A stretch of DNA of 64,000 nucleotides from Synechococcus sp. KORDI-52 (GTDB lineage: Bacteria > Cyanobacteriota > Cyanobacteriia > PCC-6307 > Cyanobiaceae): NCBI RefSeq assembly GCF_000737595.1, contig NZ_CP006271.1, positions 1,984,001-2,048,000 on the forward strand, written 5' to 3'. Position 1 is the first letter of the stretch; every line of letters begins with the position of its first letter. The position numbers and the translations under genes were made by a program. Positions 5,243 through 47,755 of the stretch are shown one piece after another. Below the pieces are notes generated by a model that saw nothing but the letters and a program-made list of their open reading frames with translations, did not search any database and was not told the DNA's origin.

Positions 5243-5611
5243 TCAGCTGATTCCCATTACTTTCTTCAACATCGCCACGAGCTCCTTCTTGCTGAAGCTC
5301 TCCAATGGAGGAGGAGGTGCATGGACACCCTGAGCCTCTAGGGCCTTGCACAACTCAGGCTTTTTAAATTTTGAATAGCCCTTGATCCCGTGCTGCTTAC
5401 ACAACCGCTTCAGCGTGACGACAGTCTGCTGCTTGAAGCTTCCGCGACCAAGAAGAGCCTTCAAATCATTCCGGCCAAGCAAAGCAGCCTCTGATTCTCC
5501 AGCTGGAACAGATACTGCTTTCAACTCGTGATCAAGCTCACGCAGAGCCCTTGCATCTGATTCAGCTACTGCCTTGAGGTTTGCCCTGAGGGCATCAGCG
5601 ATTTGTCCCAT
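5243..5611 (-). CDS. Small SAP-like DNA-binding domain protein of the mobile module
   Basis: A 122-residue protein. The C-terminal half holds two helix-extended-loop-helix stretches resembling SAP/Rho-N motifs: TLKRLCKQHGIKGYSKFKKPELCKAL split by the SKFKK loop, and SFSKKELVAMLKKVMG. The N-terminal half is helical and charged. Its start overlaps the end of the next gene by 17 bp, so the two are probably co-transcribed. A DNA-binding role is inferred from the SAP-like pattern. Confidence 0.55.
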   Translation of the reverse strand: MGQIADALRANLKAVAESDARALRELDHELKAVSVPAGESEAALLGRNDLKALLGRGSFKQQTVVTLKRLCKQHGIKGYSKFKKPELCKALEAQGVHAPPPPLESFSKKELVAMLKKVMGIS

Positions 5612-6080
5612 TAGTTCTCTCGTCGAGCTGCGCTTGGATTGTTTGCTGCTTATCGACGATCACCTGTAGTTGCTGCTTCGTCGAGGTCCACCTATTGATG
5701 AATCTGATCACGGCCTTGATCAGACGCCCGATGAAACCAGCACCTTGCATCGAACGACGACCCATCTGATAGGCACCGAATTCATTCACCAGGTCGTCAC
5801 CGGCATCTTCCAGTTCACCCACCACATTGGTGACGATCTCCAGCATCTCGTAGGCCTCTTGGCGAACCGAGGCTTCCCGTGCAGCAATCTCTCTCAACTT
5901 CGCCTCAAGTTGCTGCATGGCGGCTCGGTTGCGGTCCGCCCTACCTCGGTACTGGCCTCGACTCACCATCAACCCCCTATAGCTCTTGCGAAGCTCTAGG
6001 TAGACAGCATCGAGCTCTTCACGTTCCAGGGAAGTGGGCTCAGCAGGAAATCGTCCTGTCGGTGGGAACGAAGTGGTCAT
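5595..6080 (-). CDS. Coiled-coil protein of the mobile module, function unknown
   Basis: A 161-residue, mostly helical protein: a coiled coil around residues 20-90 (LEREELDAVYLELRKS, then QQLEAKLREIAARE) and an amphipathic segment FIGRLIKAVIRFINRW near residues 117-132. No family recognised. It sits between the small-terminase-like gene and the SAP-like gene on the same strand. A structural or membrane-associated phage-type role would fit, but nothing proves it. Confidence 0.5.
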   Translation of the reverse strand: MTTSFPPTGRFPAEPTSLEREELDAVYLELRKSYRGLMVSRGQYRGRADRNRAAMQQLEAKLREIAAREASVRQEAYEMLEIVTNVVGELEDAGDDLVNEFGAYQMGRRSMQGAGFIGRLIKAVIRFINRWTSTKQQLQVIVDKQQTIQAQLDERTNGTNR

Positions 6081-6162
6081 AAGGCTCCCGAGTTACTACA
6101 GCAAGCATGAACCAACAAAAGGGCGTTTGGATCACCCACTCAGGGGATCTTCAGGGAACGGT

Positions 6163-6648
6163 TCAACTCGGAAGTTGGTCCAGCAGCTCAGCCACCCCCA
6201 GTGCTGTTGCCTCAGTGTTCATGGATATATCCATGGCCTTGCAACTTGCAGACAGAGCTGAGGAGAGCTCACGACCTTGAAGTGACAAGCCTTGGTGCTG
6301 ATGTTGAAGAAGACTCCAACGCACAAAATCCATTAGTTCATCCGCCAGTTGCCCAAGACGACGCGAACGATCGAGCTGAAGGTCGCGGAACTCTCGCAAG
6401 TTCTTTTCATGACGATGAAGAACATCTGCAGTGCTCTGCGACCCCATCGTTTTCAGTATTTCTGCGTCGTACACGTCCAAGCGTGTCTGCCAATCCCAGC
6501 GATCGGCTCGACGACGCAAGGTTGATATGGAAGAGCCTGTGGCAACCGCAGTCTCCCTGTAAAGCCTGCCGGGTCCAGCATCGCGGTGAACGAGAAGCTG
6601 AGCGAAAGAATCGGCAGGCTCCCCTGGAAGTTGCTCGAAAGTAGGCAT
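6163..6648 (-). CDS. Small-terminase-like HTH protein
   Basis: A 161-residue protein from ATG at 6648; a longer TTG start at 6690 is possible but adds no conserved sequence. Residues 10-65 (SFAQLLVHRD, GRLYRETAVATG, STLRRRADRWDW, YDAEIL) match the N-terminal HTH layout of small-terminase-like proteins in phages and satellites (RSLRKVA...W..R...YDAE). The rest is helical. It lies just downstream of the primase on the same strand. A degraded second copy of its N-terminus is at 10888-10985. A DNA-recognition role is likely; terminase function itself is not shown. Confidence 0.5.
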   Translation of the reverse strand: MPTFEQLPGEPADSFAQLLVHRDAGPGRLYRETAVATGSSISTLRRRADRWDWQTRLDVYDAEILKTMGSQSTADVLHRHEKNLREFRDLQLDRSRRLGQLADELMDFVRWSLLQHQHQGLSLQGRELSSALSASCKAMDISMNTEATALGVAELLDQLPS

Positions 6649-6706
6649 CGTTGTTTGAACTAGATGATTCAGGCTTCCAACGGGAACCAACAGGAGTCAT
6701 CGAGCG

Positions 6707-8056
6707 TCACTGAGAACGTTTATGGACAAGCCTCTTCAAGTTGGCGAGGTGCTCACTGTTGGCCTTCTTGTACCACCAACGCTTCTGAGGCGATCCATAT
6801 CTCTGCAACAACTCAGTGATGGCAGATGAGATAGAGGCGCAGGTGAGGCCTTCTTCTTCTGCACGTTTAAGTGCTGCCACTGCGCGCATAGACGCATCTT
6901 CTGATCGCTTCTTATTCGCTGCCTCCTTCCAGCTGCCCTCATAACAAGGATCGAAGACAGCAGCTTTTTTACAAGCAGAACGACCTGGTCGCTCCTTACG
7001 AAGAATCTCCTCAACGTGTCCGCAGTGGTCATAAAAACCAGGACAAGCCACCAACAGCTCACAGACCTCATCAGCTATGAGATCGGCCTCTGCGTGTTGA
7101 CTGCGCGCAACCATCAAGGCGGCGAGCTGGAGTTGCTGAGTTTGGCCACGACCAGTCCAGCCAACCTTGAGCAGGTACTTGGCATCCTCCACGCTGATCG
7201 GTGAGAAATCAGACTTGTTAGGGGGCTCCCCCAACAGCCCCTCACCCTTAACCGCGGAAACTACTGGCGACGCGAAACGCCGTGAGAAAGGGACAACCCA
7301 ATTGAGTGGAACAAACTTGAGATCACCATCGGCACGCTCCTGAACCCAGTTGTAAGGACCACAATCTGGCTCCCTATGGCTGATCAACCTGGATTCAACG
7401 AGCTGGTTGTACGGAGCAGCCTCCTCCCAGTGAGCTCGAAATGCTCCTGGCTCCTCGACGATCCCGAATCCTTCAACACAAACGCCATTCCCTTGACCTG
7501 TGCAGGGCATACGGATCGCCCTGTAATCACTGTCACGAGCCTTGTCGTTGGGAAAGACCTCCAGAACACCTCCCGATAGCTGCAGAAGTTCGGGTTCTTG
7601 GAAGGCGTAGGACTCAGCATCCAAACCAGATTCAATGCCGGGCGTTAACAGTGCCCTTTTCATGGTTAGGGCAGCATCAAAAGTCTTAACCGGCTGAGAC
7701 AGCGGAAACCAGAGATGGATACCGCCACTGAAGCTGGAGCGAATTTGCAGCGGGCGATTCAGTCCCATCAAGCGGCATCTCTCAAGCAGCGTCTCGAGGG
7801 AACCCTCACCACGATCTGGATGGTGAGGAGATCGATGTTGATCAACGTCCAAGACAAGCCAGTTGGTTGTCTTGTTCGGACGGATTGCCAAGTACTGCGG
7901 CTGACCACCAGCCAGACCAAGGTGTTGAGCCAGAAGAGAGGCTGTTAACCAGCCAGATCGCGTGGTCTTTCCCCCGCTGTTTTCGACCACGTAGCCATAT
8001 CCAGGGCTTAAGACCCTCAGGAACCACTCCTCAAGCCGTTCACGCTTGAATCCCAT
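6707..8056 (-). CDS. Archaeo-eukaryotic-type primase of a mobile element
   Basis: A 449-residue protein. The catalytic acidic pair is visible in WLVLDVDQHRSP (about residues 65-77) and the sxH-type motif in SFSGGIHLWFPL (about 107-118), in the right order for an AEP-type primase domain. EVFPNDKARD and YRAIRMPC follow. The C-terminal half is helical, with RRYG/KRWWYKK-type positively charged segments, and could be a helical or HTH accessory domain. Such primases replicate plasmids, phage satellites and tycheposon-like elements. Its promoter side faces repeat copy A (8161-8255). An eroded copy of its first 40 codons lies at 10985-11105. Confidence 0.65.
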   Translation of the reverse strand: MGFKRERLEEWFLRVLSPGYGYVVENSGGKTTRSGWLTASLLAQHLGLAGGQPQYLAIRPNKTTNWLVLDVDQHRSPHHPDRGEGSLETLLERCRLMGLNRPLQIRSSFSGGIHLWFPLSQPVKTFDAALTMKRALLTPGIESGLDAESYAFQEPELLQLSGGVLEVFPNDKARDSDYRAIRMPCTGQGNGVCVEGFGIVEEPGAFRAHWEEAAPYNQLVESRLISHREPDCGPYNWVQERADGDLKFVPLNWVVPFSRRFASPVVSAVKGEGLLGEPPNKSDFSPISVEDAKYLLKVGWTGRGQTQQLQLAALMVARSQHAEADLIADEVCELLVACPGFYDHCGHVEEILRKERPGRSACKKAAVFDPCYEGSWKEAANKKRSEDASMRAVAALKRAEEEGLTCASISSAITELLQRYGSPQKRWWYKKANSEHLANLKRLVHKRSQ

Positions 8057-8160
8057 AGGCCAGGAGCAAGGGTCATAACGACGGATCAGAGCCCCGCCTC
8101 TTCAAACTACCCAGCCTCGTCATCCCCATTTGAAGGGCGTTCAGTTGCATATAACTGTCC

Positions 8161-8255
8161 CCAGTTGCACAAAAAATGAGGGACAACTCAAAGACAAGCC
8201 CCTCAGAACTGTTCCTGCAACTCGGAGCCAAGTGGCAGTAGCCCGAGGGCCCGTT
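8161..8255 (+). repeat. Island repeat copy A
   Basis: Starts CCAGTTGCACAAAAAATGAG and contains GGGACAACTCAAAGACAAGCC. The inner inverted pair is GTTGC/GCAAC, and it ends in AAGTGGCAG. It lies about 105 bp upstream of the primase start. Just before it, 8141-8156 holds another small palindrome (CAGTTGCATATAACTG). The rest of 8057-8571 carries no gene I can support; a weak minus-strand reading frame around 8200-8363 is unrecognised. Confidence 0.8.
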
Positions 8256-8571
8256 TTGGTACTTGACCGAGATGCCCTCAGTTGCCCTGAGATCGGCGTT
8301 CATGAAGGCAAGAATTGTCGCGAGTTCCCTGTACGTGGAACTATCGGCCAAAACTCGGCTCAAGTTGCTCTACTTGAAAGCCAGAGACAATTTGAGCGAA
8401 GGAATTCTCAGGCAACTCACCCACGGAAGAAGGACCAATAGCACTGAGCTGCCAGTAGAGCTACTGCTTGCTCTGAAAAGACACGTGCAGATCGATAGCC
8501 ATCGAACGCGTGCATATCTCGGACTAATAATTTTGCCTCGCGATTAGGCAGCCATCAATAGGTTGCCAATA

Positions 8572-10887: not shown

Positions 10888-11105
10888 TTAGCCCTTTGTC
10901 CCCGTCGTCTCTCGAACGAGCCAACCGAGTCCTACATCACGGTGGACTAGGCGCTGAGCAAAAGAATCGAATGTGCTCGGGAAAGAGAGCGAGTTAAACA
11001 ACCCAGCCGACTTCTCCTCCTGCCGCTTGACTCGATCACAAAGCAATACCCAGGATTCAAGATCCTCAAGAACCATTTCCCAAGCGGTTCACGCTTGATT
11101 CCGAT
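10888..11105 (-). pseudogene. Eroded remnant of the primase and small-terminase-like genes
   Basis: On the minus strand, 11105 to about 10985 reads GIKREPLGKWFLRILNPGY, then SSGRR, clearly homologous to the first 40 residues of the primase at 6707-8056 (GFKRERLEEWFLRVLSPGY); the ATG is mutated to ATC. From about 10985 to 10888 the sequence jumps to SFAQRLVHRDVGLGWLVRET, homologous to the start of the small-terminase-like gene (SFAQLLVHRDAGPGRLYRET). Roughly 1.4 kb between them is deleted. The upstream flank to repeat B is also homologous to the flank between the primase and repeat A. Confidence 0.8.
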
Positions 11106-11218
11106 GAGACGGGAGCGGGAGCCACAGCGACGGATCAAAAGCCGACGCTTCAATGGATCCAGCTTCGTCACGCCCATTGGTTCCCTTTGGGAGATCGAGC
11201 CATTGCCCATCGTTCCGC

Positions 11219-11385
11219 AAAGTTGCACAAAATTCCAGGGACAACTCAGAGACAAGACCCCGAGACCTATTCCCGCAACTGATAGCTAAGTGGCAGCAGA
11301 GGCCAGAAACCCCAGCGCTGATCAGCAGGATTCACACCAGCTCCAGCCACCACACTCCCCATCAATGCAGTGATTCTGCACAAAC
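11219..11385 (+). repeat. Island repeat copy B
   Basis: AAGTTGCACAAAATTCCAGG, then the two-motif segment GGGACAACTCAGAGACAAG, then inverted partner GCAACT, then the long conserved right arm (GGCAGCAGAGGCCAGAAACC, GCGCTGATCAGCAGGATTC, CATCAATGCAGTGATTCTGC). It follows the primase remnant as copy A follows the primase, and lies at the 3' side of the GST gene at 11445-12254. Nothing else recognisable is in 11106-11444. Confidence 0.85.
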
Positions 11386-11444: not shown

Positions 11445-12254
11445 TCAACTGGGTGATTTTGAAATCACAGCGAACTGACCGGCGTTACGCGCAATCTCCG
11501 ACTCGATCTCGTCCGGTGTTGCATACGGAGGGCCAAAGAAAGCAGGCCTAGAAAAAGGCACGGTGAGGCCGGTACTGAAGGACGGACGCTGGTGGAGCAT
11601 CTCGATCCAGGCAAGCAGATGACTCATCTCCGAGATATCGACATTGGCCCAATAGGCACTAGCGCAGTAGGGGAAACAGGCGACATCGACGAGTGTGCAG
11701 CGCTGGCCGAGCACAAAAGGGCCGCCCGATGACGCGAGCTGGTCGTCGAGCATGTGCAAACAACGTTCCGCTTCCGCAATGAAGCGACCAATGGCGAAGG
11801 GATCGTTGTGGCCGCGAACCTTGGCGATTCGCTGAAAGTACATGGCTTGCCCCATCGAAGGCCCGAGGGCGCTGACCTGCCAATGGAGCCATTGCTTCGT
11901 CTGCAGGTGCAGCTGCAGGTCCTCATCGGCAGGAGGCAGCAAAGGGCTCGCGAAGCGAGCTGCGCTGTACTCCAAGATGGCTCCCGACTCGGCGACTGTT
12001 ACTCCGCGCGCACGATCAATCAGTGCCGGAATCCGACCGTTTGGGTTGATGGAAAGAAAACGTTCACTGCGCTGTTCACTCTTCTCAAAGTCCACCAGTG
12101 CCCAGTCATAGGGCACACCCATTTCTTCAAACAGGATGGGGAGCTTCCAGCCGTTTTGAGTGGCATAGATCAGACAGCAGATTTCACTATGCGCTGAAGG
12201 CGACCACGCTGCGTCAAGTGTCACCTGCCGGGCGAGCCTTGATGTTTGGCTCAT
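11445..12254 (-). CDS. Glutathione S-transferase
   Basis: 269 residues. The N-terminal thioredoxin fold is seen in NGWKLPILFEEMGVPYDWALVDF, SINPNGRIPALID (cis-Pro) and VAESGAILEYSA (glutathione gamma-Glu contact). The C-terminal helical domain has QWLHWQVSALGPSMGQA, GGPFVLGQRCTLVDVACFPY and ISEMSHLLAWIEMLHQRPS. It resembles the Nu/YghU-YfcG type, whose members act as GSH-dependent disulfide reductases or peroxidases. It is flanked by direct repeats B and C, and pieces of its 5' end recur at 33898-34216 and 47505-47545. It appears intact. Confidence 0.85.
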   Translation of the reverse strand: MSQTSRLARQVTLDAAWSPSAHSEICCLIYATQNGWKLPILFEEMGVPYDWALVDFEKSEQRSERFLSINPNGRIPALIDRARGVTVAESGAILEYSAARFASPLLPPADEDLQLHLQTKQWLHWQVSALGPSMGQAMYFQRIAKVRGHNDPFAIGRFIAEAERCLHMLDDQLASSGGPFVLGQRCTLVDVACFPYCASAYWANVDISEMSHLLAWIEMLHQRPSFSTGLTVPFSRPAFFGPPYATPDEIESEIARNAGQFAVISKSPS

Positions 12255-12435
12255 GTCATCACCTCTCTCATTTCTGCATCCCTGATCAACGCTAGGGAGC
12301 TGATCCGATCGTTCAACTGAGTGCGCTAATCCTGAACTCAGATCAAATCAACCAAGCATTCTCTGGCTGTAGGCACCATGCCGAAGCCAATCTTGGCGCT
12401 CATCTCTGATGGTCGTCCAGCTGCCCTTCATTCAA

Positions 12436-12608
12436 CCCAGTTGCACAAAATTCCGGGGAAAACTCAGGGACAAGCCCTTCAAATCCATTACAACGTCTGG
12501 GCCTAAAGAGGCAGCAGCGGCCAGAAACCCCAGCGCTGATCAGCAGGATTCACACCAGCTCCAGCCACCACGCTCCCCATCAATGCAGTGATTCTGCAGA
12601 GGAATGGA
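12436..12608 (+). repeat. Island repeat copy C
   Basis: Begins CCCAGTTGCACAAAATTCCG and contains GGGGAAAACTCAGGGACAAGCC. A degenerate inverted partner CTGGG is at about 12497, and the full right arm ends in GATTCTGCAGAGGAATGGAT, abutting the chrA stop codon at 12609-12611. The left flank (12255-12435) is the GST leader, which is duplicated at copy F. Confidence 0.85.
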
Positions 12609-13796
12609 TCAAGCCAGGGTCAAACCACCCACTACGGCGCAGAACAGCACCACCCGCCACGCCGGTTGCCGCCAGCACACCAACAACACAAACGCCACCA
12701 ACGCCAGGCTGAACTCAGCGCCTCCGCGGATGCCTGTCTGCCATACGGGCTGAAACAACGCCGCCAGCAGGATGCCCACCACCGAAGCATTGATGCCCAG
12801 CAGGGCTCGACGCATCGGAGTCAAACGGCCCAGGTCACTCCAGAAGGGCAAGAGCCCACCAACCAACAAGAACGAGGGAAAAAAGAGGGCAAAAAGCGCC
12901 ATCACAGAACCGGCAATGCCCTGAAGTCCAGGCTGCAGATCAAAACCAAGAAAAGCCGCGAAACTGAACATCGGCCCCGGCACCGCCTGGGCAGCGCCAT
13001 AGCCCGCCAGAAACTGCTGCAGGTCGATCCAGCCGTTGGGAACCAAGGCTTGCTCCAGCAAGGGGAGCACCACATGACCACCGCCAAACACCAAGGCACC
13101 GGTGCGCAGGAAACCACTGAGCTGCTGAACCAACAGCGGTCTGGCCTCAGCAGACAACCAGGGCAGAGCCACGAACAGCAGCACAGCGAAACCAAGCAAA
13201 ATCACCGCCACCGAACGGCGCAGCGGAACCACGAGACGTTCCGGTGCCGATGGCTCCAGCTCAGGTGGGGTCAGCGCGCACCAACCCACCAATCCGCCAA
13301 GCAGCAGTGTCAACAGCTGAGCCCAGACGCGAGGCACCAACAGCACCAGCACAGCAGCCGCCACCAACAGGCTGGCCCGCTGCCGATCGGGAGCCAGCTT
13401 GCGCTGCAGGCCCAGAACGGCCTGGGCCACCACGGCCACAGCCGCCACCATCAAGCCATGCACCCAACCCCCATCGATCAAACGGGGATGGGCTGATAGC
13501 AGCGACGCCGCCAGCACCATCAACACAGCAGAGGGCAACGTGAACCCTGCCCAGGCCGCCAGGCCGCCAAGCCAACCGGCCCGGATCAGCCCCAGACCCA
13601 TGCCCACCTGGGAACTCGAAGGGCCTGGCAACAGCTGACAGAGACCAACGAGATCGGCGTAGGCCGCAGCGGTGATCCAACGCTCCCGCTGCACAAACCT
13701 CTCGTGGAAGTAACCGAGGTGCGCCACGGGGCCACCGAAGGAGGTCAACCCCAACACGAAGAACTGAACGAACACCTGCAGCGGAGCGGGCATCAC
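12609..13796 (-). CDS. chrA: Chromate transporter ChrA
   Basis: 395 residues, the long bidomain form. Each half has the family signature: GLTSFGGPVAHLGYFHERFV and LCQLLPGPSSSQVGMGLG in the N-half; GALVFGGGHVVLPLLEQALV and AVPGPMFSFAAFLGFDLQP in the C-half. About 10-12 membrane helices are expected. ChrA proteins export chromate. It lies 10 bp downstream of the ACR3 gene on the same strand, so an acr3-chrA operon for oxyanion export is likely. Its 3' third recurs at 31446-31863, and a trace at 39331-39400. Confidence 0.92.
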   Translation of the reverse strand: MMPAPLQVFVQFFVLGLTSFGGPVAHLGYFHERFVQRERWITAAAYADLVGLCQLLPGPSSSQVGMGLGLIRAGWLGGLAAWAGFTLPSAVLMVLAASLLSAHPRLIDGGWVHGLMVAAVAVVAQAVLGLQRKLAPDRQRASLLVAAAVLVLLVPRVWAQLLTLLLGGLVGWCALTPPELEPSAPERLVVPLRRSVAVILLGFAVLLFVALPWLSAEARPLLVQQLSGFLRTGALVFGGGHVVLPLLEQALVPNGWIDLQQFLAGYGAAQAVPGPMFSFAAFLGFDLQPGLQGIAGSVMALFALFFPSFLLVGGLLPFWSDLGRLTPMRRALLGINASVVGILLAALFQPVWQTGIRGGAEFSLALVAFVLLVCWRQPAWRVVLFCAVVGGLTLA

Positions 13797-20247: not shown

Positions 20248-20295
20248 AGCAGGATTCAAGCGAGGTCAGCTCCCTGGGAGTTGCACACGATTGAT

Positions 20296-20410
20296 CCCAG
20301 TTGCACAAAATTCCAGTGACAACTCAGGGACAAGCCCCTCAGACCTGTTCCGGCAACTGATTGCTAAGTGGCAGCAGCGGCCAGAAACCCCAGCGCTGAT
20401 CAGCAGAATT
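20296..20410 (+). repeat. Island repeat copy D
   Basis: CCCAGTTGCACAAAATTCCA, then GTGACAACTCAGGGACAAG and GGCAACTG as a good inverted partner to CAGTTGC, then the right arm up to GCTGATCAGCAG, where similarity stops. A second GTTGCACA lies 20 bp upstream, as in copy E. It fills the gap between phnZ and the AAA/iron-sulfur gene (20248-20588). Confidence 0.85.
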
Positions 20411-20588
20411 ATTGCCGTCTCCAGGCATGCATCTCATAAAACCAACCAAAGATTCTGTCGAGATGGATTCATCAAAGGCAAAAAGCCGTGAGTAAGGGGA
20501 TGGTCCACAGCAAACCAAGCTGAATGTCTCAAACGCGGGCGGCTTCGCGAGTTTTTTCCAAACTAAAGAAAATAAATCTGGTTGGGCA

Positions 20589-22947: not shown

Positions 22948-23478
22948 ATGGAGCAGGCAGTGTTGACGATCCGTCAGATCCAGGAGACCGCCCACAACAG
23001 CGACAATGCCGAACGGCCCAATTGGCCGATGCTGGTGATGCGCTCACCGAAGGGCTGCACCGGTCCAGCGGAGGTGGACGGCAAGAAGCTCGAAAACTTC
23101 TGGCGCTCCCACCAGGTGCCCATCACCGATGCGAAAACCAACCCGAAGCACCTGCAGCAGCTGGAGGCCTGGTTGAAGAGCTATCGGCCCTGGGAACTGT
23201 TTGACGAAACCGGAGCCATCCGCCCCGAGATCCGCTCCCTTTCTCCCAAGGGGGAGCGGCGCATGGGTTCAAATCCCCACACCAACGGCGGCGTGCTGCG
23301 ACGCAATCTGGTGTTTCCTGATCTGACGAACTACGCCATGGCGGTGGAAACCGCCGGCACACGTGTCGACGCCAACACCACTCCGCTGGGCGAACTGATC
23401 CGCGAGATGAAGTGTTGTCTGCAAGCGCATGGGGAGAACACACAATCAGACAAAAGAGTGCTCAGCAATAACACCTAA
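22948..23478 (+). pseudogene. xfp: Internal fragment of xylulose-5-P/fructose-6-P phosphoketolase
   Basis: About 150 residues from the middle of an enzyme of roughly 800: NWPMLVMRSPKGCTGPAEVDG, WRSHQVPI, LEAWLKSYRPWELFDETG, GERRMGSNPHTNGG and LVFPDLTNYAM are all phosphoketolase landmarks in the correct order. The thiamine-binding N-terminus and the C-terminal half are absent. After about 23410 the frame drifts to unrelated residues and stops. It cannot encode an active enzyme. Confidence 0.8.
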
Positions 23479-23867
23479 GACTTCAATACCTCAGAGACAA
23501 CGACAAATGGGAGTGGCGGAGATTTAAAAAAGCCGTGGAAGTAATCACAGCCATGACTTGCAAGAAAATCAATTTGCGAGTCGCCCTGAACGCATTCAGC
23601 AACAACTTTAAGACCCAACTCGCGGGCCATCAGAATCGTACCTTTCACTATCGCAGTATTCTCACGATTGACCGGAACAGCATCGACAAAAGCTCCGTCA
23701 ATTGTGATATATTTAATTGGGAGGGTTTGAAGAACTGCAAGAGATGAATAGCCTGTACCAAAATCATCAATACATAGATCAACACCCAAATCAGCAAGCT
23801 CAGCAAAAAGCTCTTTAGCCTGAGCAAGATCAGTCAAGAGCGATGTTTCGGTAAGCTCTATAAGCTA
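23475..23867 (-). pseudogene. C-terminal fragment of an EAL-domain c-di-GMP phosphodiesterase
   Basis: The minus strand reads LIELTETSLLTDLAQAKELF, then DLCIDDFGTGYSSLAVLQ, IKYITIDGAFV, ARELGLKVVAECV and GCDYFHGFF: the E-T, DDFGTGYSS, K-D and E motifs of the EAL fold after its midpoint. The EAL motif itself and everything upstream are missing; a TAG stop lies just before LIEL. Even the retained part has ITIDGAFV where a K-DR-FV would be usual. Nothing recognisable lies in the AT-rich 23868-24157. Confidence 0.8.
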
Positions 23868-31223: not shown

Positions 31224-31272
31224 GCAAGGTCCGCAATAAGGGCAAGCCCCCTGGGAGTTGCACAACATTGAT

Positions 31273-31445
31273 CCCAGTTGCACAAAAAGCGAGGGACAAC
31301 TCAGGGACAAGCCCCTCAGACCTCTTGCCACAACATATAGCTAAGTGGCAGCAGCGGCCAGAAACCCCAGTGCTGATCAGCAGGATTCACACCAGCTCCA
31401 GCCACCACACTCCCCATCAATGCAGTGATTCTGCAGAGGAATGGA
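31273..31445 (+). repeat. Island repeat copy E
   Basis: CCCAGTTGCACAAAAAGCGA, then GGGACAACTCAGGGACAAGCC, then AAGTGGCAGCAGCGGCC and the full right arm, running directly into the truncated chrA copy. The left flank CCTGGGAGTTGCACA resembles the left flank of copy D. Confidence 0.85.
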
Positions 31446-31863
31446 TCAGGCCAGGGTCAAACCACCCACTCCGGCGCAGAACAGCACCACCCGCCAGGCC
31501 GGTTGCCGCCAACTCACCAAGAGCACAAACGCCACCAACGCCAGGCTGAACTCAGCGCCTCCGCGGATACCTGCCTGCCAGACGGGTTGAAACAACGCCG
31601 CCAGCAGGATGCCCACCACCGATGCGTTGATGCCCAGCAGGGCTCGACGCATCGGAGCCAATCGGCCCAGATCACTCCAGAAGGCCAAGAGCCCACCAAT
31701 CAACAAGAACGATGGAAAAAAGAGGGCCATGAGCGCCATCACAGAACCGGCGATGCCCTGAAGCCCTGGCTGCAGATCGAAGCCAAGAAAGGCCGCGAAA
31801 CTGAACATCGGCCCCGGCACCGCCTGGACAGCGCCATACCCCGCCAGAAACTGCTGCAGGTCA
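31446..31863 (-). pseudogene. chrA: Truncated second copy of chrA (3' third only)
   Basis: The minus strand encodes about 138 residues nearly identical to the C-terminal third of ChrA at 12609-13796 (PGPMFSFAAFLGFDLQP, ALLGINASVVGILLAALFQP and the same stop position). Similarity ends abruptly at about 31863, corresponding to about 13026 in the intact copy. Together with repeat E this is a segmental duplication of roughly 590 bp of the C-chrA junction. Beyond it, 31864-32138 is AT-rich and holds nothing recognisable apart from the promoter side of the next gene. Confidence 0.9.
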
Positions 31864-33773: not shown

Positions 33774-33830
33774 GGAGAGGAGAGGAGAGGAGAGGAGAGG
33801 TGAGGAGAGGAGAGGAGAGGAGAGGAGAGG
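33774..33830 (+). repeat. AGAGG pentanucleotide microsatellite
   Basis: About 11 copies of AGAGG with one TGAGG variant. Perfect short tandem repeats this long are rare in cyanobacterial genomes. The surrounding 33387-33897 contains no gene I can support. Confidence 0.9.
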
Positions 33831-33897
33831 AACACTGCTTCGCAGCAGATAGGCAGTCCAACGATTCGGGATATACCAGGAAATCATTAGGCCGTGA

Positions 33898-34216
33898 CCA
33901 GCAAAGAGCTTGCGAAGCGAGCCGCGCTGAACTACAAGATGGCCCCAGACTCGGTAATGCTTAATCCGCGCGCCCGATCTACCAGTGCTTGAATCCGACC
34001 GTTGAGATTGATAAAAAGAAAACGTTCACTACTCTGTTCATTCGTCACAAAGTGGACCAATGCCCAGTGATAGGGCACAGCCATTTCTTCAAACAAGATG
34101 AGGAGCTTCCAGCCGTTTTGAGTGGCATAGATCAGACAGCAGATTTCGCTATGCGCTGAAGACGACCACGTTTCGGCGAGCGTAACCTGCCTGGCGAGTC
34201 TTGATGTTTGGCTCAT
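33898..34216 (-). pseudogene. 5' fragment of a GST gene (copy of 11445-12254)
   Basis: Minus strand MSQTSRLARQVTLAETWSSS, then CCLIYATQNGWKLLILFEEM and ITESGAIL, then a TAG where the intact gene has GAG (Glu). The similarity continues as FSAARFAS to about 33898 and ends. The leader upstream (34217-34396) and repeat F are also copies of the corresponding GST leader and repeat C. Multiple substitutions make this older than the chrA duplication. Confidence 0.88.
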
Positions 34217-34396
34217 GTCATCGTCTCTTTAATGCCAAAACCTCTAATCAACACTAGGGAGCCAGTTCGATCGTTCCACTGAGTGCTCCAATCTTGAACT
34301 TAGATCAAATCAACCAAGCATCTTCTTGCTGCAGGCACCATGACGCAGCCAATCTTGGCGCTGATCTCTGATGGTCATCCAGTTGCCCATAATTGA

Positions 34397-34573
34397 CCCA
34401 GTTGCACAAAATTCCAGGGACAACTCAGGGACATGCCCTTCAGACCGTTAACAGGAACTGGGAATAAAGCGGCAGCAGCAGCCAGGAACCCCAGCGCTGA
34501 TCCGCAGGATTCACACCAACTCCAGCCACCACGCTGCCCATCAATAGGGTGATTCTGCAGAGGAATGGATCAG
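34397..34573 (+). repeat. Island repeat copy F
   Basis: CCCAGTTGCACAAAATTCCA, GGGACAACTCAGGGACATGCC, then AACTGGG as an exact inverted partner to CCCAGTT; the right arm ends GATTCTGCAGAGGAATGGAT. After it the sequence does not continue into chrA but into unrelated DNA leading to the psbA fragment. Confidence 0.87.
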
Positions 34574-34829
34574 GTCATTCATCAGGCCGATCACTTCATC
34601 CCACATCGCTGCAGCCATCACGGCAAGCGGTCGGATGCGCAGAACAAGCAGATCCCCTGCGCAACGCGCACCGCTGGACAACTGGTAAGTCGGAGCTGTC
34701 GAAGAGATCAGGACCGCTCAGGCTGAGCGTCGTGTCAGCCGCGCAAACTCCCTTTACATTCCCGCTGTCGGGTTAGCCGACCTTTCTTATTTGCAACCGG
34801 GATTCGTCCCACCGGCTTTTTCCGTTCTC

Positions 34830-34910
34830 ATGACCACCACCCTCCAGCAGCGCTCCGGAGCTTCCAGCTGGCAGGCCTTCTGTGAGTGGGACACCTCCAC
34901 CAACAACTGA
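34830..34910 (+). pseudogene. psbA: psbA (photosystem II D1) 5' fragment with leader
   Basis: Reads [20 protein letters not shown], then DTSTNN and stop. This is the D1 N-terminus, where marine cyanobacteria have CEWVTSTNNRLYVGW; Val is Asp here and the gene stops right after TSTNN. The 90 bp upstream (TTTACA at 34753, then a short hairpin) look like a psbA promoter/leader. The other 330 codons are absent. 34911-35338 is AT-rich and empty as far as I can see. Confidence 0.8.
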
Positions 34911-35338
34911 TTCATTGTTTGGCAGGAAATGCGATCGCTCAGAAGCTCAGGTCCATATCACTCTTGAGGTGGTTTTGATGCTTTTTAGCTCTTGAAAGAA
35001 AGATGATTGATTTTACTTTTAAAAGATGAATCAAAATGCATTTCGTGATCAGAACTGAACATGGTGAAATTATTTTCTTGATTTATTGTTAAGGATTGCG
35101 TGCATGTTTTGAAAAATATTTAAGGGGCATAAGTTTTATTTTAATGCTCATGACTTGCATGAGTTTAGTGTTGTGCATAGGCTCACAATCCTTCTCGCCC
35201 AAAGTAGCGCGTGCATGATACCGGCTGATCTATGCCTGCTGCATAAGCATGGGGCTAGAGAATATTTCCTGATACTATGCATAACTACTGAAAATCTTAA
35301 TTTACATCTGTTGATTAGTTGATGACTACTCATAGAGG

Positions 35339-38895: not shown

Positions 38896-39158
38896 AGGAC
38901 GAGCTCACTGCATGTATCAGTTTGAGTCTGATCTTTCATCGGTAGGCACGACACAACCACTTTTTAACGAGGTTTTTACAGCTGCAGCACTGCACTGCTC
39001 CCATTGACAAGCAGTTAATCGCCAGTGAGACTTATTAAGGCATCTGCAATCTATTTATCGAATTTGCCTTCTACGCATTTTCGGAAGAGGTAAAGGCTGT
39101 TGCAAGAGCATTGAGTACGGCAATCAAAATTTTCCTGAGTTGCCATTAGTCGCATCAT

Positions 39159-39400
39159 ATTGCACAAAATTGCAGGGACAATCTTGGGACACTCTCGACA
39201 GAAACAATGTAAACAAGTGGTCTAAAGAGGCAGCAGCAGCCAAGAAGCCCAGTACTGATCAGCAGGAATCACACCAGCTCTAGCCACCACGCACCCCATA
39301 AACGCAGTGATACTGCAGAGAAATGAATCAGGCCAGGAGCAAACCGCCCAACACAGCGCAGAAAAGCGCCAACCTAAACGCCGGTAGCCCAGTAGGTGAC
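39159..39400 (+). repeat. Island repeat copy G with a trace of chrA 3' end
   Basis: A diverged copy: ATTGCACAAAATTGCAGGGA, GGGACAATCTTGGGACAC, GGCAGCAGCAGCC, ACTGATCAGCAGGAATCAC, GATACTGCAGAGAAATGAAT. From 39331 it continues CAGGCCAGGAGCAAACCGCC, a degraded form of the chrA end that follows copies C and E. Similarity fades by about 39400. The rest of 38896-39755 shows nothing codable that I trust. Confidence 0.75.
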
Positions 39401-40007: not shown

Positions 40008-40645
40008 AGCTTCAGGGTTGGTGGTTGTTCCAGCAATACTTCAGTAGCCCTTAGCCAATCGTTCAATGTGAGGTAACAGAAGGATTGCATGAATCAGCTG
40101 GACAGAGAATTAAGCAGGAACCATTTCATCTCTGTTCTGCATCAGTAAAACATTTGTTTTCTCTTACTCGATACGATTCTGCATTGAAATCGATTTATTC
40201 AACTCAGATGCGCCTGCTATGACATAAATAGTCGATCATTCTTCCAACGAAACTAGCACAATGATAATTGTATCAGGGCTTGCCTACAACCGCACGCTTC
40301 CCCCTTGCAAAAGCAGTAGATAGATACGACAGTGGCATTGAATTCAATTTCGCTTGGTTTGATCATGGATAAACGTGTGGAACCTGAATTACATACAAGT
40401 GACGTTCCCGCCTCAATAAATTCAATGCACAATTGATCTACTTGGCAGACGGCATGAGACCACCTTATGTCTTGCCTCATGCGAATAACCTGCATATCTA
40501 CATCAGAATTAGATCACTCAAAAGAAGGGAAGTCGAAAGAACAACTTGCAAGAAGAGTTAGGCCCTATGGACAATGATGACTTTCAATTCAGCACAGGTG
40601 CAAGCCAAGACTAGCTTGCACCAATCATTGACCGGAAGGCCCGGA

Positions 40646-41584
40646 TTAGAGGCCGAGGAACATGGCAGGTATACGGTCCAGGGCATGGATCCCCAACATT
40701 TGCGACACCACATTCACCAACATTCCAGCGATGTGAGCAGCACCCACGAGAGCCAAGCCTCTCCACAGCTTTTCATAATCAGCGGGGGGCTTATTTCCAA
40801 CCCAGGCAGGAGAAACAGCTACGTATTCCGGCGCTGGGGGCACATCAATGGCCATGCTCACTCCAGAGGCAAGGCTGCTGCGGATCAAGCTGTCGTTCCC
40901 TTTAGATCGATCGCTACTCGCAAAATTTTTCTCAAGAGACGCAATTCGAACAAAATTAAGCATTGACATTCCGCTTGAAGAGGTGAATGAGCGGACGTAT
41001 GGAACCCCATGATCACCGAAAACTTCTGTATATTCTGCGGAATCAATGATTGCATCAACCAGGGCATCAAAACCTTGCTCTGATTGAATTGCAGCTGCAT
41101 TTGCAACTTCTTGCTGATCAAGGGGTGGTCGACCAAGTAAATGCTTGAAATTAAGCTCAATGCCGCGATATGCAGAGACTTTGTAGAAATAACGAGACTT
41201 GTAGAGTTCGCTTTTAGCGAGGCCCCTAACAAATTCGCGAGCACAAAGACGTCCATCAGCAAATTGCGCTTCAAGCACACCGCAGCGTTCATGGTCCATC
41301 ACATGCGCATTACCTAAAACCTGTCTGTATGCAGCCTCTATGGCCTGATGGCATGCCTCCATATCAGATGGCGCATAACGAGCAAATGTCACCCGATAAG
41401 GACATTCAGAATGATCTCGAGGGCCTACAGGTATATGCATCTGAGCGCATGATTGGCGTAAGTACTCAGCATTCGTCAAAGGAGCTTGCTTCTCCCCAAA
41501 GGTCGCCTGCGGCGAAGAAAAACTGACATCAGCCGCTTTTGACTCGGCACCGAATCTGAATTTTGGAGAGAGAGAAGCGTTCAT
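40646..41584 (-). CDS. Phycobilisome linker with C-terminal membrane helix (CpcL-like)
   Basis: 312 residues. A PBS_linker_poly domain spans about 50-190: YRVTFARYAPSD, CGVLEAQFADGRLCAREFVR, SELYKSRYFYKVSAYRGIEL, NFKHLLGRPPLDQQEV, IIDSAEYTEVFGDHGVPY. A Ser/Gly-rich linker region follows (200-260), then a hydrophobic helix LVGAAHIAGMLVNVVSQMLG (about 279-298). A linker domain plus membrane tail is the hallmark of CpcL, which anchors rod-only phycobilisomes to thylakoids near photosystem I in other cyanobacteria. No other phycobilisome gene is nearby. An eroded copy of the tail lies at 47262-47471. Confidence 0.82.
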   Translation of the reverse strand: MNASLSPKFRFGAESKAADVSFSSPQATFGEKQAPLTNAEYLRQSCAQMHIPVGPRDHSECPYRVTFARYAPSDMEACHQAIEAAYRQVLGNAHVMDHERCGVLEAQFADGRLCAREFVRGLAKSELYKSRYFYKVSAYRGIELNFKHLLGRPPLDQQEVANAAAIQSEQGFDALVDAIIDSAEYTEVFGDHGVPYVRSFTSSSGMSMLNFVRIASLEKNFASSDRSKGNDSLIRSSLASGVSMAIDVPPAPEYVAVSPAWVGNKPPADYEKLWRGLALVGAAHIAGMLVNVVSQMLGIHALDRIPAMFLGL

Positions 41585-43846: not shown

Positions 43847-44178
43847 TCCAATGAAGGAAGTGCCACTATCGAGGAAAAAAGCAAACCCTTCAAAATTTCT
43901 TTAAAAAAAGAAATTCAGGACACACTTCTCAGCATCAGAAGTGAGGCGCGAAAAATTTCGAAACACTCCCTCAATAAAAATCAATGAAGAGCAGTCCAGA
44001 TCGCCATAAAATAAGGCCTATCAAGTGAAGTTGCCGCCCATTGTCTCAACCTTAACCGCCGGAGAAGGTTCGCAAAAGCTCAGGATGAGAAGTAGTTGCT
44101 GGCAGCAGAGGCCTGAGTTAAAGCGTCACACGCCTGGCCATGCTCAATCCGAAAAAGGCCTTAATTCCACACAAGTCA

Positions 44179-44275
44179 ACCCAGTTGCAAAAAAATGAGC
44201 GACAGCTCAAAGACAAGCCCTACAGATCCATAGTAGTGTCTGGGAACACAGTGGCAGCAGCGGCCACAAACGCCA
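44179..44275 (+). repeat. Island repeat copy H
   Basis: ACCCAGTTGCAAAAAAATGA, GCGACAGCTCAAAGACAAGCC, CTGGGA as inverted partner, then GTGGCAGCAGCGGCCA; similarity stops before the long right arm. It is most like copy A (both have the ATGAG variant). The rest of 43847-44804 is AT-rich with no supported gene. Confidence 0.78.
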
Positions 44276-46892: not shown

Positions 46893-47261
46893 CTGCTTCT
46901 CAAAAACACCAATATCACTCTTGACTTAAATACTAGCGTCTTCGACTTTAACCAATCCGGCCATATTGCAGAAGCCAAAGTGTTCCGAACAAAAAACAGG
47001 AGACAAATTCATTTAGGCGCAAGAATTCAAATGGGGGCACCGATCACGTGCAATACAAATAGTGTGGTAAGAAGGCTTGAATCACGCAGTTTTTTTTACA
47101 ATAAAACCCGTCAATAATTCCTAGTCGCACAATACATCGAGAGTCGCCAGGAATATTCACATACTCAAATCAGAGATAACCGCAAAACCATGTAGCCGTC
47201 AGATGCATACTGATACAGGCCCAGAGACTGGCATGTACCCATCATTCATAGCCAAGTGCAG

Positions 47262-47471
47262 ATCAGAGGTCGAGGCACATGGCAAGAATATGGTCGAGTG
47301 CATGGATCCCAAGCATTTCCGACATCAAATTCACCAACATTCAAGTGATGTGAGCAGCACTCACGAGAGCAAGGCCGCGCCACAGCAGCAAGGACTGCAA
47401 ACCGATCATGAGATACATTCCTTCCAAAGAGATGGGAAGATTCCAGACGTAGTGGGTGGCAAACTCATACA
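47262..47471 (-). pseudogene. Eroded copy of the CpcL-like linker C-terminal tail
   Basis: The minus strand reads LLWRGLALVSAAHIT, stop, MLVNLMSEMLGIHALD, then HILAMCLDL and stop, against LWRGLALVGAAHIAGMLVNVVSQMLGIHALDRIPAMFLGL (split here only for reading) in 40646-41584. One TGA replaces GGA. Upstream residues (YFLYEFATHYVWNLPISLEG) do not match the intact linker, so this copy came from a relative with a different stem. No start codon or linker domain remains. Confidence 0.8.
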
Positions 47472-47504
47472 GAAAATATCAATGTACGATAAAGGTAACC
47501 ACGT

Positions 47505-47640
47505 GATTGCAAGCGATACCTGGCTCGCGAGCCTTGATATTAAGCTCTTGTTATCACGTTTCTACTTACTGCATCCCTAATCAAACAACTCTGAGCGGTC
47601 GATCCCATCGTTCAACTGATTGTCGCAGTCCCATCCTCAG
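47505..47640 (-). pseudogene. Trace of the GST 5' end and leader
   Basis: CCTGGCTCGCGAGCCTTGAT at 47519-47538 corresponds to the first codons of the GST at 11445-12254 (SRLAR). The following 100 bp (CATCCCTAATCAA, GATCCCATCGTTCAACTGA, CCTCAGATCAAATCA) match the GST leader in the same order as before repeats C and F. It therefore links copy I to the same cassette edge. Confidence 0.72.
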
Positions 47641-47660
47641 ATCAAATCATCTGACAATCG

Positions 47661-47755
47661 TCCTGTTACACAACATTCCAGGGAGAACTCAGCGACAATC
47701 CCTTCAGAGCAATTGTTCCAACTGAGCAGCAAGGTGCAACTTCGGCCACAAGAGG
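47661..47755 (+). repeat. Island repeat copy I
   Basis: A diverged copy: TGTTACACAACATTCCAGGG, GGGAGAACTCAGCGACAATCC, then CCAACTGAGCAGCAAGGTGC; only the core and left part of the right arm remain. It is the rightmost copy seen in the window. Confidence 0.7.

Follow-up and report, generated by a model that had tools for sequence, protein, structure and literature searches.

Features of the locus and anatomy of the repeat

The stretch of DNA that was analysed (64,000 nucleotides, referred to here as the window) carries a repeat that occurs eight times in the 2.57-Mb genome, always on the + strand and always between 8.1 and 44.3 kb of the window. Since it is restricted to this region and to a single strand, its copies, A to I, represent one local, co-oriented family. 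Each copy is composite and reads, from left to right: an arm (part 1), a core of 14-17 bp, and a right flank that starts with the 5' end of a DUF4336 gene (part 2). The copies, and the genes and gene fragments that adjoin them, are (positions in the window):

5243..8056, - strand: satellite-type genes, comprising ORFs 5243-5611 and 5595-6080, a terminase small subunit gene (6163-6690) and a primase-like gene (6707-8056)
8143..8229, + strand: copy A, P' arm (paired AGTTGCAyA, GGGACAA), upstream of the satellite primase; located by self-BLAST
8230..8310, + strand: copy A, degenerate core followed by the P (integrase-side) arm of a second element, CCGAGATGCCCTCAGTTGCCCTGAGATCGGCGTTCATGA; assigned by eye
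10968..11255, - strand: primase 5' remnant left of copy B (52% over residues 1-46)
11217..11380, + strand: copy B, arm, core (11292) and 92 bp of part 2
11445..12254, - strand: intact GST cassette gene, between copies B and C
12439..12616, + strand: copy C, arm, core (12510) and part 2
12609..13796, - strand: intact chrA (chromate transporter), right of copy C
20279..20412, + strand: copy D, arm and core (20370), after the 3' end of a gene that we take, from its sequence alone, to be PhnZ-like
31256..31343, + strand: copy E, P' arm (AGTTGCACA at 31256 and 31276)
31344..31453, + strand: copy E, core (31347; palindrome TGGC-AGCAGCG-GCCA from 31346) and part 2
31446..31862, - strand: chrA 3' end fragment at copy E, cut at 31862
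33899..34388, - strand: GST 5' end and leader, cut at 33899, left of copy F
34381..34577, + strand: copy F, arm, core (34471) and part 2
34735..34911, + strand: truncated psbA leader and first ~26 codons, right of copy F (93-94% to the psbA cassettes of relatives G022 and G023)
39154..39389, + strand: copy G, arm, core (39229), part 2 and a chrA trace
44176..44275, + strand: copy H, arm and core (44253)
47416..47725, + strand: copy I, GST leader trace and degenerate arm

The arm measures ~90 bp and contains two copies of AGTTGCACA, at a spacing of 20 bp, and two of GGGACAA; part 2 comprises the 110 bp that is shared between copies. Alignment with relatives placed one sharp split point in the repeat, with the arm to its left and the DUF4336 5' end, on the minus strand, to its right (as in part 2 of copy E). 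This point coincides with AGyGGCAGCAGCGGCCA, the best copies of which read TGGC-AGCAGCG-GCCA, i.e. two 4-bp inverted halves flanking 7 bp. Like part 2, the core stems from the DUF4336 5' end. The core 15-mer matched the window 21 times (≤ 3 mismatches) against 3.3 expected, and the 14-mer with at most one mismatch recovered precisely the copies in repeats B to H.

The right arm of copy A was compared by eye with the P arms of G000 (the window's own genome), G002, G003, G021, G024 and L194, and on that comparison copy A resembles a tandem junction (P'-core-P), the joint expected from two elements integrated in tandem. No chrA was found to its right. The left flank of copy D was also found in G022, G030 and G033. 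In addition, the array region contains a truncated EAL-domain gene (23475-23837) and an 80% direct repeat (40608-40769 and 47225-47386) that is part of a phycobilisome linker gene (40646-41584), the second copy of which sits immediately left of the GST trace of copy I.

The DUF4336 site and the recombinase gene beside it

The DUF4336 gene (PF14234) was found in 29 of the 34 genomes, including all 19 good assemblies, with one intact copy in each, and in ten relatives the part 2 DNA runs on uninterrupted into the intact gene. In the window's genome it lies 6 kb left of the window. The gene order on its 3' side, where menB and menD are presumably the conserved neighbours by our reading of the sequence, is conserved in most relatives compared. 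The repeats lie on its 5' side wherever both occur close together on one contig. The first gene shared on that side encodes an amine-oxidase-like protein (placed elsewhere in a few genomes), and the distance to it varies widely: ~1.5 kb in G027 and G028, where the site is near-empty, 3.6 kb in G004, 13.6 kb in G030, 16.6 kb in G022, 21 kb in G002 and ~85 kb in the window's genome, where the entire window falls within the island. The island has an intact target gene at one edge and displaced fragments of this target at the other ends. Scans for tRNA genes, one of them at the DUF4336 site, found none.

In the window's genome, a 407-aa ORF (L166:6054-7277) immediately adjoins the 5' end of DUF4336. 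The protein was found intact at this position in five genomes (G000, G003, G021, G024 and a MAG of another genus), with homologues that are 77-84% identical, and as a remnant in G005. A search of Pfam and PHROGs matched no family. The AlphaFold model (mean pLDDT 76.8) had as its 20 best PDB matches exclusively tyrosine recombinases: XerH, XerA, lambda Int, IntI4, mycobacteriophage Int, Cre and Tre, with eight matches at E ≤ 0.001 and modest TM-scores (about 0.3-0.4 to the query). The residues R241, K272, R357 and Y390 are invariant in six sequences, while the catalytic histidine positions are both replaced, and a distant relative matches PF00589 just below its cut-off. By modelled fold and conserved residues the protein is a tyrosine recombinase, and it would presumably be active as such. 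The Pfam integrase model had matches in every genome of the genus, none of which, among the matches listed, lies in the array near DUF4336; the 407-aa recombinase was detected only by reading the gene adjoining DUF4336. Several array-bearing genomes lack it at the site. Neither a profile of the protein nor the exact arm pattern retrieved relatives or matches from viral contigs.

The recombinase side of the DUF4336 junction carries the paired arm motif of the repeat in inverted form: between the core and the recombinase gene lies an integrase-side arm, TTGTGCAACTGGGCACAACCTTGTGC, the comparison of which with the reverse complement of the repeat arm gave 0/1000 shuffles in nine of ten cases and 3/1000 in the other. 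Tyrosine integrases with a lambda-like attP use two arms with binding sites that face a short core, and by analogy the arm-core-arm arrangement beside the recombinase gene has the layout of such an attP.

In the window's genome, one element of ~14 kb extends from the DUF4336 core to copy A and encodes the recombinase, type I restriction-modification, a NucS-like nuclease, RmuC, a terminase small subunit (TerS; 6163-6690, phrog_6299) and the primase-like protein (6707-8056, with an AEP-TOTE match below the Pfam cut-off). The latter matched none of the annotated phages and was found within the genus only in the window's genome, apart from one distant copy in G018. The elements of G021 and G024 that contain the recombinase gene are about 5-6 kb each. 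The former is a shorter version, with the recombinase, a TerS (phrog_6299, 1.9e-12; 55% identical to that of the window) and a 986-aa ORF that ends in an arm and a decayed core; this ORF is primase-like by eye alone and had no match in Pfam or PHROGs. The latter spans ~5.1 kb between two perfect cores and holds the recombinase gene and an excisionase-like gene. For the element of G003, no right end was found in the stretch searched (L172). Judged by their gene content, the elements of G000, G021 and G024 look like phage satellites.

The best reading of these observations is serial integration, at the 5' end of a protein gene, of satellite-like elements and of cassettes without an integrase, in a manner comparable to tycheposons and tRNA-linked islands; we put the probability that site-specific integration has taken place repeatedly at the first codons of DUF4336, with the repeats as the attachment-site junctions that it left behind, at roughly 0.85. 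In a competing reading the recombinase is incidental, and the island is driven by incoming DNA that undergoes RecA-type homologous recombination at a dispersed repeat already present. The lengths of the arms and part 2 would indeed suffice for homology-driven exchange, and in many array genomes the site lacks a recombinase gene, but such exchange leaves the initial joining of the arm to the DUF4336 5' end, the palindromic core, the inverted arm pair by the recombinase gene, and the DUF4336 location and orientation unexplained, and as the sole driver we consider it improbable. It may well act in addition to site-specific integration: repeats already in place probably contribute to the shuffling described below by recombining homologously with one another, the two contributions being inseparable in these data.

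Mixing of flanks and origin of the cut genes

We read 49 junctions taken from relatives, selected by a core with at most two mismatches plus an arm motif or DUF4336 at the left; badly decayed junctions (A, I and that of G005) are absent from the counts. The arm motif lay 70 bp from the core in 24 of the 27 arm junctions, a fixed spacing that partly reflects the common descent of the arms, and all 18 junctions that were comparable, from eight genomes, had the DUF4336 orientation. The same classes of right flank recurred with different left flanks: chrA with seven (DUF4336, GST and others), psbA with three and GST with two. The GST unit, for instance, follows DUF4336 directly in G033:C31 and follows copy B in the window. 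The flanks on the two sides are independent of each other, so the pieces stem from more than one ancestral neighbourhood. The 110 bp common to the copies hides where the crossovers fell.

Within the window, self-BLAST recovered every pair of homologous truncated flanks with shared breakpoints that had been claimed in the initial annotation. The 3' end of chrA was shared between copies C (12429-13025) and E (31266-31862) at 91% over 600 bp (92.9% over 409 bp for the chrA part alone), and a trace of it at copy G (12441-12670 versus 39160-39389) at 78%; the GST 5' end with its leader was shared between 11937-12611 and 33899-34572 at 85%, with a trace at copy I (12120-12350 versus 47416-47649) at 72%; and the primase 5' end was shared between copies A (7983-8241) and B (11032-11299) at 71%. 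The E-values of these pairs (about 1e-24 to 0) exclude chance. The psbA gene that is truncated at copy F is intact in two relatives, G022 and, adjoining DUF4336, G023. The copies in the window are 62-89% identical in their arms and 81-96% in the core plus part 2, so the events differ in age, as the initial annotation had proposed; that recombination was focused on the repeats is likewise supported.

The complete psbA (D1) units are found at L058:9091-10170 (G023), where the gene is the first unit beside DUF4336, and at L048:11100-12179 (G022). A GGAGA-type microsatellite (33775-33832) sits just to the left of where the GST fragment is cut. The arrays also contain a second, diverged type of chrA with 72-75% identity (L061:5050-5934, L063:7286-8170 and L038:5253-5759). 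Finally, chrA with a piece of part 2 was found away from the DUF4336 array, at G012:C1:781490-782149 (~107 kb off) and on another contig at G027:C3:242183-242859, from which it appears that the chrA unit may also have reached other places.

The initial annotation had traced the flank pieces to the neighbours of an ancestral site and had taken them as evidence of repeated duplication or unequal exchange at the repeats. Such an origin from a single GST/chrA site in this genome is not supported; the flanks are independent, and the ancestral site is the DUF4336 5' end, outside the window. A reading in which chrA with part 2 was the ancestral chromosomal neighbour of DUF4336 was considered and dropped, as several genomes have quite different units at the same core. 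Local tandem duplication with unequal crossing-over, in which an ancestral GST-repeat-chrA block was copied within the chromosome and the copies decayed, would be in line with copies that share one region, one orientation and decayed homologous flanks, but it fails on the relationships of these flanks. The chrA fragment of copy E (519 bp with part 2) is 95.5% identical to that of G002 (over 442 bp) and 94.6% to that of G022, both above the 93.6% to the local chrA of copy C; a tree joining the chrA of C and E as sisters was rejected (p-AU = 0.0056), the grouping of E with G002 being weakly supported (88/84). The GST fragment of copy F is 84% identical to the GST of C, which itself is 91-92% identical to those of other species (G033 and G012). 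The E and F fragments are hence not recent local copies, and according to these sequence comparisons their flanks came from, or were exchanged with, other lineages. The same units moreover occur in other genomes with other partners, also directly after DUF4336, and copy A ends in an integrase-side arm (matched by eye), so that we regard local duplication as very unlikely. A short non-coding repeat in several copies might suggest a MITE-like element, small, transposable and non-autonomous, or else a regulatory RNA that is transcribed and has been copied to many places, but both can practically be dismissed: an Rfam search of the repeat gave no match, every copy lies at one locus and on one strand with none scattered over the genome, one end of the repeat is DUF4336 coding DNA and the right edges differ in length.

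Proposed serial integration and its relation to known systems

In the favoured reading of serial site-specific integration, the tyrosine recombinase, encoded beside DUF4336 in elements with a phage-type small terminase and a primase, would bind the paired AGTTGCACA arm sites on either side of the core and cut at the 14-17 bp core. Every integration would keep DUF4336 readable at the left edge and push the older units rightward, and consequently the array would grow in one direction, as core-cargo-arm, core-cargo-arm. Later decay of the cargo would leave chrA, GST, primase and psbA as cut pieces on the cores, and units without an integrase (GST, chrA-phn, psbA) may move in trans. A further elaboration, which we hold to be possible though with odds clearly below even, is that of an integron-like platform, in which circular integrase-less units, each with one arm-plus-core site, are captured one-directionally at the DUF4336 5' end, in trans, by the satellite-borne recombinase and are exchanged between species. 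Like integron cassettes, the units without an integrase share one orientation, each end in an att site and have their first position beside the recombinase, but they carry arm-type sites by a double-strand-type core and often hold several genes, and the recombinase was not recognised as IntI by Pfam or PHROGs.

Serial insertion marked by fragments of the target gene has been described for the tRNA-linked islands of Prochlorococcus, with tRNA-Met remnants in MIT9313 (PMC2784084), and for tycheposons in picocyanobacterial islands (as cited in PMC10872708). As far as these systems are described there, the present island shares with them a tyrosine recombinase (here predicted), one chromosomal site, repeated target-gene fragments and a cargo of nutrient and other genes; it differs in having a protein gene, at its 5' end, as target, with no tRNA found at the site by scanning, and in that the recombinase escapes the Pfam integrase model. 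A family of picocyanobacterial tyrosine integrases that is invisible to profile libraries was reported near tRNA-Phe or tRNA-Cys (Flamholz et al., PMC10187409). Compared by description, the recombinase at DUF4336 resembles this family in its occurrence in marine picocyanobacteria, its invisibility to PHROGs, the Arg/Lys/Arg/Tyr set and a cargo of restriction-modification and nutrient genes, and differs in its location. The small element of G021, with its predicted integrase, its terminase small subunit and an ORF that resembles a primase by eye, looks similar to phage satellites of the PICI/PICMI type (PMC10803314), and that of the window's genome appears to have a like gene set plus cargo; unlike those satellites, its primase and recombinase remain unmatched in phage libraries and the units accrete in tandem. 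We found no report of DUF4336 as an integration site in the open-access papers searched, an earlier report elsewhere being possible, and the DUF4336 5' end as target, the anatomy of its att sites and the exchange of cassette-like units among species at a single locus appear to be new.

For one large variable island of marine Synechococcus, the analysis names the site together with the enzyme and the recombination sites that are probably involved, and it indicates how this island, with its phosphonate, chromate, photosystem (psbA), phycobilisome and defence genes, probably grew. With the att sequences as a simple marker, insertion events can be found and put in order in any picocyanobacterial genome.
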